From Methanothrix harundinacea 6Ac (lineage in GTDB: Archaea; Halobacteriota; Methanosarcinia; Methanotrichales; Methanotrichaceae), in the NCBI RefSeq assembly GCF_000235565.1, contig NC_017527.1:930001-994000 (forward strand): a stretch of 64,000 bases of DNA. Reading direction: 5' to 3'. The position numbers and the translations under genes are program-made. How positions within the stretch are numbered: position 1 is the stretch's first letter; each line of letters opens with the position of its first letter. Below the pieces are notes generated by a model. The model made no database searches, was not told the origin of the DNA, and saw only the letters and a list, made by a program, of their open reading frames with translations. Below, one piece after another: positions 55,112 to 56,272 of this stretch.

Positions 55112-55741
55112 CTGAAGACCGGATAGTTACATCTGTATAAAGGGCCGTTGGACCGTTCCGCTGCTGGGGGTCGGGAGCAGGCGGCCTCGGCCGCCAGGGG
55201 CGTTCTTGCAGGGATGGCGGAGCAGCGGAACCGCGCCCATTGGTACGTTTTTTAGGTCTGCGACATTTATTGCTACCGACCTGGCCGCCGTTGTGATGAT
55301 GGCTTATTCGAGCCCGGTTGGAGCAGCCCCCTCCTCGGAGACGGGGCCGTTTATGTCCAGAGGGCGATCAATTGCAGCATTTAGGAGAAGTCGGCCGGGG
55401 GCGTGCGCGATGGGCTGGCCCGGGAAAAAGAGGCTCGGGTCCGGGGATCTCCGTCCCAACCGTCCCGATGGCGGCTCTGGAGCGAGATCCCAAGCCTCGG
55501 AGCCGCCAGAACCGTTTCTATTAATATCTCTTAAAAATTGGACTCTTTTAATACTCATTATTCGATCTAACGAGGTTAAGTAAAATTAATATCTCCGAAG
55601 TTCCTCATAATGGCTACAAATATCGCTCTTTTCTCCCCACAAAATGGGATCTTTTTCTGGATATTATTCACAAAAAGGATTTTATAGCCGGAGCCAGGAG
55701 AAGGATATAGTGCAGTAAAGAACCAAGGAGGTGAGAATCGA
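55112..55741. other. Intergenic region with an inverted repeat and the His-rich gene promoter
   Basis: GTTCCGCTGCT (55155-55165) is repeated in inverse as AGCAGCGGAAC (55221-55231), 55 nt apart. Open frames here on both strands show no domain or signal. The second half becomes AT-rich and holds the promoter described next. Confidence 0.5.
55680..55735 (+). promoter_or_regulatory. TATA box and strong Shine-Dalgarno of the His-rich protein
   Basis: GGATTTTATAGCC (TATA 55680-55687) is followed by AAGGAGGTGAG (55725-55735), 6-8 nt before the ATG at 55742. The ribosome site is nearly a perfect match to the 16S 3' end, so strong translation is expected. Confidence 0.6.
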
Positions 55742-55867
55742 ATGTGTTGCCATACTGGAGATAAGCACGCCCATCCCCACGATCACGATGGGAAGGTCCA
55801 CACCCATGAGCACGTCCACGACGCCGACCATCATAAGCACACCCACAAGTGCTGCCACGGCCACTAG
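55742..55867 (+). CDS. Histidine- and cysteine-rich metal-binding microprotein, 41 aa
   Basis: The product begins MCCHTGDKHAHPHDHDGK and ends HKHTHKCCHGH. Of 41 residues, 15 are His and 4 are Cys (pairs at 2-3 and 37-38), with 5 Asp and 1 Glu. Such composition can bind several Ni2+, Zn2+, Cu+ or Co2+ ions. The perfect Shine-Dalgarno (AAGGAGGTGA) and a well-placed TATA box support a real, well-expressed gene. It resembles Hpn-like nickel proteins in composition only, not in ancestry that I can show. Methanothrix needs much nickel, cobalt and zinc. No transporter lies beside it. Confidence 0.75.
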   Translation: MCCHTGDKHAHPHDHDGKVHTHEHVHDADHHKHTHKCCHGH

Positions 55868-56272
55868 CCCCTTGATCGGCGGCTCAATTTCTGGCGAAAG
55901 AAGCCCTGTACCCTCCTTTCGGGCGTCGGGTCTCCGGACCCGGGCCGCCAGGGCTGCCATTCTTTAATTACAGCAAAATTTTGTGATCCTCTCCGTCGAG
56001 TTCCTCTCGATTTTTCCTCTCAGCTCTCCGGGATGGGGTCATCCAATAATCCTAAAACGCCTTATTTCTACAAAGATTGGCTATTATGAGGGAAATTGTT
56101 AATAAGGATCCGAGAGAAGTTTGATTGTGGGTATAATACCATAGGTCGTGAGGAGGCATCGACGGACCTTCATACGCCTCCAGAGGGGTGCCATCTTTCG
56201 AGGTACGAGACGGAGTTGATCTCGAATTTCGTGATCTTCAATCTCGTATTTTTATCTAGGAAGTTATGAATA
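55868..56272. other. Intergenic region
   Basis: The first half is GC-rich; 56050-56270 is AT-rich. A TATA-like GTATTTTTATC at 56246-56255 is the likely SDR promoter. No gene is seen. Confidence 0.45.

Follow-up and report, generated by a model that had tools for sequence, protein, structure and literature searches.

A conserved histidine- and cysteine-rich microprotein of Methanothrix as a probable nickel/cobalt buffer shared with Deltaproteobacteria-type bacteria

The microprotein gene is located on the forward strand of the window, the 64,000-nucleotide stretch of Methanothrix harundinacea 6Ac DNA that was analysed, where the following features were assigned:

55613..55621, + strand: GCTACAAAT element, candidate regulator site, ~66 bp 5' of the TATA box
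55671..55687, + strand: archaeal BRE and TATA box (CAAAAAGG ATTTTATAG), from the sequence and orthologous upstream regions
55725..55734, + strand: Shine-Dalgarno sequence AAGGAGGTGA, 7 nt 5' of the microprotein ATG
55742..55867, + strand: microprotein gene (MCCH...HKCCHGH), 41 aa, from ORF translation, orthologues and purifying selection

The product of this ORF, MCCHTGDKHAHPHDHDGKVHTHEHVHDADHHKHTHKCCHGH followed by a stop, comprises 41 residues (4.75 kDa) with 15 His and 4 Cys, the latter arranged as two CC pairs at residues 2-3 and 37-38. The translation agrees with the microprotein described in the initial annotation, and the Shine-Dalgarno sequence and TATA box claimed there are found at the positions listed. 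At 36.6% its His content is by far the highest among the window's 321 ORFs of 30-80 aa, the runner-up reaching 18.9%, and the gene is single-copy within the 2.57 Mb genome, on contig C2. Searches of Pfam and NCBIfam gave zero matches for the window microprotein, as did NCBIfam for the bacterial 53-aa form described below, PHROGs for both forms and a PDB sequence search with the microprotein alignment. No signal peptide was found, and the AlphaFold model of the apo form is of low confidence (mean pLDDT 55.5), as would be expected if the peptide gains order only with metal.

Relatives within the Methanotrichaceae, deposited as Methanothrix/Methanosaeta and relatives, were found by tblastn and profile search. 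Profile matches are present in 28 of the 50 family genomes and the gene is intact in 27, such that close relatives do keep the frame, the absence of which the initial annotation would have taken as evidence against a gene. The 28 microprotein sequences give a pN/pS of 0.168, and of the 38 codon columns 37 vary at position 3, compared with 19 at position 1 and 15 at position 2. Indeed, His codons alternate freely between CAT and CAC with His itself kept, and nearly all His and Cys residues are invariant among the archaeal orthologues (consensus MCCHxxxKHxHxHxHxGxxHxHEHxHDxxHxHxHKCCH); the sole Cys3-to-Gly variant (MCGH, L061) retains X-X-His. Judged by this pattern of conservation, ORF 55742-55867 is a real gene under purifying selection. 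An antisense frame is open in most relatives as well, but the substitutions indicate that selection acts on the sense frame, in agreement with the initial annotation, which put the membrane-like look of the antisense frame down to CAT/CAC becoming ATG/GTG. One genome (G001) carries two copies, of which L029 has had its N-terminus replaced and L078 is intact, and in L028 (G047:C46) an apparently decayed copy has lost its ATG to GCG, with the frame interrupted by a premature stop. The gene is missing from about half of the family, among them six genomes of a single genus that are 99% complete, and the microprotein is therefore not essential to methanogenesis.

Beyond the family, a class-wide profile search (238 genomes) gave a single match of marginal E value (L042), which sits in a longer unrelated frame and was taken as chance, and a phylum sample (393 genomes) added one marginal match only, inside a longer protein. 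L071, L082, L087 and L088 were rejected as His-rich tails of membrane-transporter-like proteins. A scan of the genomes of 84,980 species returned the same family, three genomes deposited as 'Deltaproteobacteria' and one Methanospirillum MAG contig. This last match (L050, 292-417; Methanospirillum hungatei M59 MAG) is an intact homologue of 42 residues whose contig has been assigned to a different methanogen order, which may reflect a binning error or transfer. A bacterial survey that covered one phylum with two peptide patterns found the bacterial form in ~9 of 297 genomes from the phylum to which G547, the genome that carries L072, belongs. At all 11 loci inspected the bacterial form is 53 aa long with 19-20 His, and has the MCCH (Met-Cys-Cys-His) start conserved in archaeal and bacterial microproteins, the CCH end of the archaeal form and a His ladder that is longer than in the latter. 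Alignment of the archaeal with the bacterial forms leaves 17 invariant columns, of which 12 are His and 3 Cys. At L072 and L077 the proteins encoded in the flanks look typically bacterial on reading, which makes archaeal contamination unlikely for these two loci. A literature search on the microprotein family, within the library covered, found no paper describing it.

The regions upstream of the archaeal orthologues share a common architecture, with GGAGGTGA or a near variant 5' of nearly all orthologues and a TATA-like box 47-77 nt 5' of the ATG in 21 of 27 upstream regions. The GCTACAAAT element is present once in the window, where 0.07 would be expected, and exact GCTACAA occurs in 15 of the 27 regions, 66-68 bp 5' of the TATA box wherever the latter was called. 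In most such regions a TTATGC-like sequence is located 23-24 bp further 5' (TTATGC-N17/18-GCTACAA-like), the spacing of which resembles that of a two-half-site operator; of the two halves, GCTACAA alone is well preserved in the window copy. High-scoring copies of the element are confined to the microprotein gene in the scanned loci, and we rejected GCTACAA as an operator common to nik/cbi genes, since it was not found at the nik/cbi genes of these loci. NikR is present in 48 of the 50 family genomes, and no operator common to the microprotein and nik/cbi promoters was found, nor did the microprotein promoters share inverted repeats above shuffles. Most matches of a genome-wide search with the element were again microprotein promoters, and the rest were scattered sites; we note that one extra site lies 5' of a periplasmic-binding-protein-like ORF (L124).

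The neighbours of the window microprotein, a DUF2582 winged helix and an SDR, are uninformative on metal, and in its genome at least 300 kb separate the gene from nikR and from either cbiM gene. Among the 32 archaeal copies, however, CbiM/NikM, which is found in 50 of 50 family genomes, lies within 7 kb of eight, where 0.48 would be expected (naive P = 1.7e-8, treating related genomes as independent and relying on mechanical gene calls in the flanks). The N component of the adjoining operon is of CbiN type in L054 and of PDGLE/NikN type in L048, L059 and L064, the PDGLE domain being one that we take to correspond to NikN. A published assignment associates NikN and NikK/NikL with nickel, and CbiN with cobalt (PMC2667541). 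In L058, NikR lies ~1 kb from the microprotein, together with a NikA-like binding protein, FmdE and a putative MinD/CooC-like ATPase, and in L062 the F430 synthesis proteins CfbC and CfbB are encoded 0.7-2.9 kb upstream, both scoring above curated cut-offs. L073, grouped by sequence, has the same gene cluster as L062.

The bacterial copies are placed in similar company, with 9 of 11 adjoining cbiM/cbiQ/cbiO, a cbiK-type chelatase or a TonB receptor with DUF4198. CbiM/Q/O lie within 6 kb in 5 of the 11 loci (P ~7e-9 to 2e-7, with copy numbers assumed and related genomes again taken as independent), and a CbiK-type chelatase lies within ~2 kb in four (L074, L089, L105 and L106). In L107, CbiM, CbiQ, a CbiO-type ATPase and DUF4198 are encoded upstream on the same strand, and the genes follow the same order in L089, where Pfam confirms CbiM and DUF4198. 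L103 has CbiM and CbiQ, a CbiO-type ATPase immediately precedes the microprotein in L072 and L077, and L109 has the TonB receptor with DUF4198; no Ni/Co-type neighbours were found in the flanks inspected of L104 and L108. A riboswitch search detected a cobalamin riboswitch at cbiK of L074 and none at the other ten loci.

Because the peptide is conserved, dominated by His and Cys and repeatedly encoded beside nickel/cobalt uptake genes, we consider it probable that the microprotein is a cytosolic Ni(II)/Co(II) buffer or relay, disordered in its apo form, that works like Hpn and Hpn-like of Helicobacter pylori. From the sequence and its genomic context we infer metal binding, cytosolic action, a preference for nickel/cobalt over zinc and the direction of transfer, as follows. 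Metal entering through Nik/CbiMNQO-type or Nik/Opp-type ABC importers would be caught just inside the membrane, with the alternating His-x-His ladder and both Cys-Cys-His clamps acting as ligands, such that the largely unfolded peptide wraps divalent nickel and/or cobalt. The buffered metal would thereby be kept from poisoning other sites and from loss as sulfide, and would then be passed to F430 synthesis, CODH/ACS, hydrogenases and corrinoids. In addition, removal of the first Met, which is expected because Cys is small, would expose H2N-Cys-Cys-His, a putative ATCUN-type (X-X-His) Ni/Cu site. As CbiN and CbiK neighbours point to cobalt, and PDGLE, NikR and Cfb neighbours to nickel, either metal may be the one that is bound. 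With respect to the initial suggestion of nickel, zinc or cobalt, the neighbourhoods favour nickel/cobalt, though one ZnuA/ABC-3 locus would be compatible with zinc.

The same binding could serve another purpose, namely detoxification of excess nickel or cobalt. CDF exporters do adjoin two copies (L054 and L078), and Hpn-like gives nickel tolerance besides storage (PMC8704837), but the neighbours are chiefly importers and cofactor makers rather than exporters, which renders this purpose rather unlikely. Somewhat less likely still is a general or zinc-directed metallothionein-like buffer that lies near Ni/Co genes only through clustering of metal-handling genes. Cys pairs and His would suit Zn(II) too, ZnuA and an ABC-3 permease adjoin the L055 copy, a Fur-family regulator is present in L053 and L107, and the two CDF exporters could be read in the same way; however, CbiM/NikM, CbiQ, CbiO, NikR, CfbB/CfbC and CbiK are far commoner as neighbours. 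The positions of some copies, directly behind cbiO in L072 and L077 and behind the operon in L048, L059 and L076, as well as an ATPase fragment with a His-rich tail in L063, would fit an accessory subunit of the Nik/Cbi ECF transporter that is bound to NikO/CbiO and accepts metal on the cytoplasmic side. We regard such a subunit as improbable, since most archaeal copies, including that of the window, are unlinked and have their own promoter, and CbiM is present in all family genomes whereas the microprotein is not. Finally, the ORF might be spurious, arising where a CAY-repeat tract happens to have gained a start and a stop codon or as a shadow cast by the membrane-like antisense ORF (55682-55960, - strand), and an antisense frame does remain open in most relatives. 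This reading is refuted by the concentration of variation at sense codon position 3, the low pN/pS and the conservation of start, stop, Shine-Dalgarno sequence and ends across two domains.

The proposed Ni/Co buffer is similar, in being very small and His-dominated, to Hpn and Hpn-like, the latter of which is under NikR control and begins with MAHH, an X-X-His ATCUN site (PMC8704837). By contrast, the His residues of the microprotein alternate (HxHxHxH) rather than forming runs, a Gln-rich part is absent, Cys-Cys-His clamps are present at both ends, the putative ATCUN site would require Met removal and the hosts are methanogens and Deltaproteobacteria-type bacteria; the proposed likeness is functional, with no sequence homology found. 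The same clustered-His Ni/Co/Zn chemistry is found in the His-rich tails and loops of HypB, SlyD, CooJ, RcnA and CDF proteins, some of which supply nickel enzymes. Whereas those stretches are appendages of folded proteins, the microprotein is free-standing (38-53 residues). Metallothioneins are likewise small, Cys-containing metal binders, as is predicted for the microprotein; we nevertheless rejected this assignment, since the 4 Cys stand against 15 His and form CC pairs only, without a CxC/CxxC array, and there is no Pfam match. The genes for NikMNQO, NikKMLQO and CbiMNQO importers repeatedly adjoin the microprotein, albeit in only a minority of its carriers, and this adjacency suggests that they probably act in one pathway. 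The microprotein is not among the described importer components M, N, K, L, Q and O (PMC2667541). In the part of the source consulted, the known components listed for nickel homeostasis in cable bacteria (Desulfobulbales) include no mention of such a peptide (PMC11247825).

Methanogens need much nickel, for F430, CODH/ACS and hydrogenase, and the metal is scarce in sulfidic water. How archaeal methanogens take up nickel has been described as not known (PMC10617489), and a conserved 41-residue peptide with metal-gene neighbours is a candidate nickel carrier that can be tested directly and at low cost. Methanogens and Deltaproteobacteria have both been noted for large Ni/Co metalloproteomes (PMC2667541), and the presence of the microprotein in both is unexpected. 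We tentatively raise, as a broader scenario that is open to considerable doubt, that the microproteins form a previously undescribed family of relay peptides for nickel (or cobalt) in acetoclastic methanogens and Deltaproteobacteria-type bacteria, which would link ECF importers to F430, CODH/ACS and corrinoid synthesis by carrying metal between them, and would have been exchanged by interdomain gene transfer. The bacterial branch, the association with uptake operons and the conserved promoter element are new relative to the initial annotation, and the case illustrates that such genes can drop below annotation cut-offs.

Further small proteins are encoded near some copies. A conserved ~124-aa protein (MNHVDRSFSFTRIDSKDELMDAMFNHKWPLCCSF...), the L066 copy of which has no Pfam match, lies ~0.5-0.9 kb 5' of the microprotein in L056, L059, L063 and L066. 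L059 (4895-5077) and L063 (533-646) also have, on the + strand between the region of the ECF ATPase and the microprotein gene, another short His-rich ORF that lacks Cys (MTEKHEHEHKPEKMHEHEHEHE...) and has no Pfam match. The C-terminal ATPase fragment of L063 (3-338, + strand) ends in the His-rich tail HEHMHIHGKTVHEHLHAHGKEHAHQHMN.
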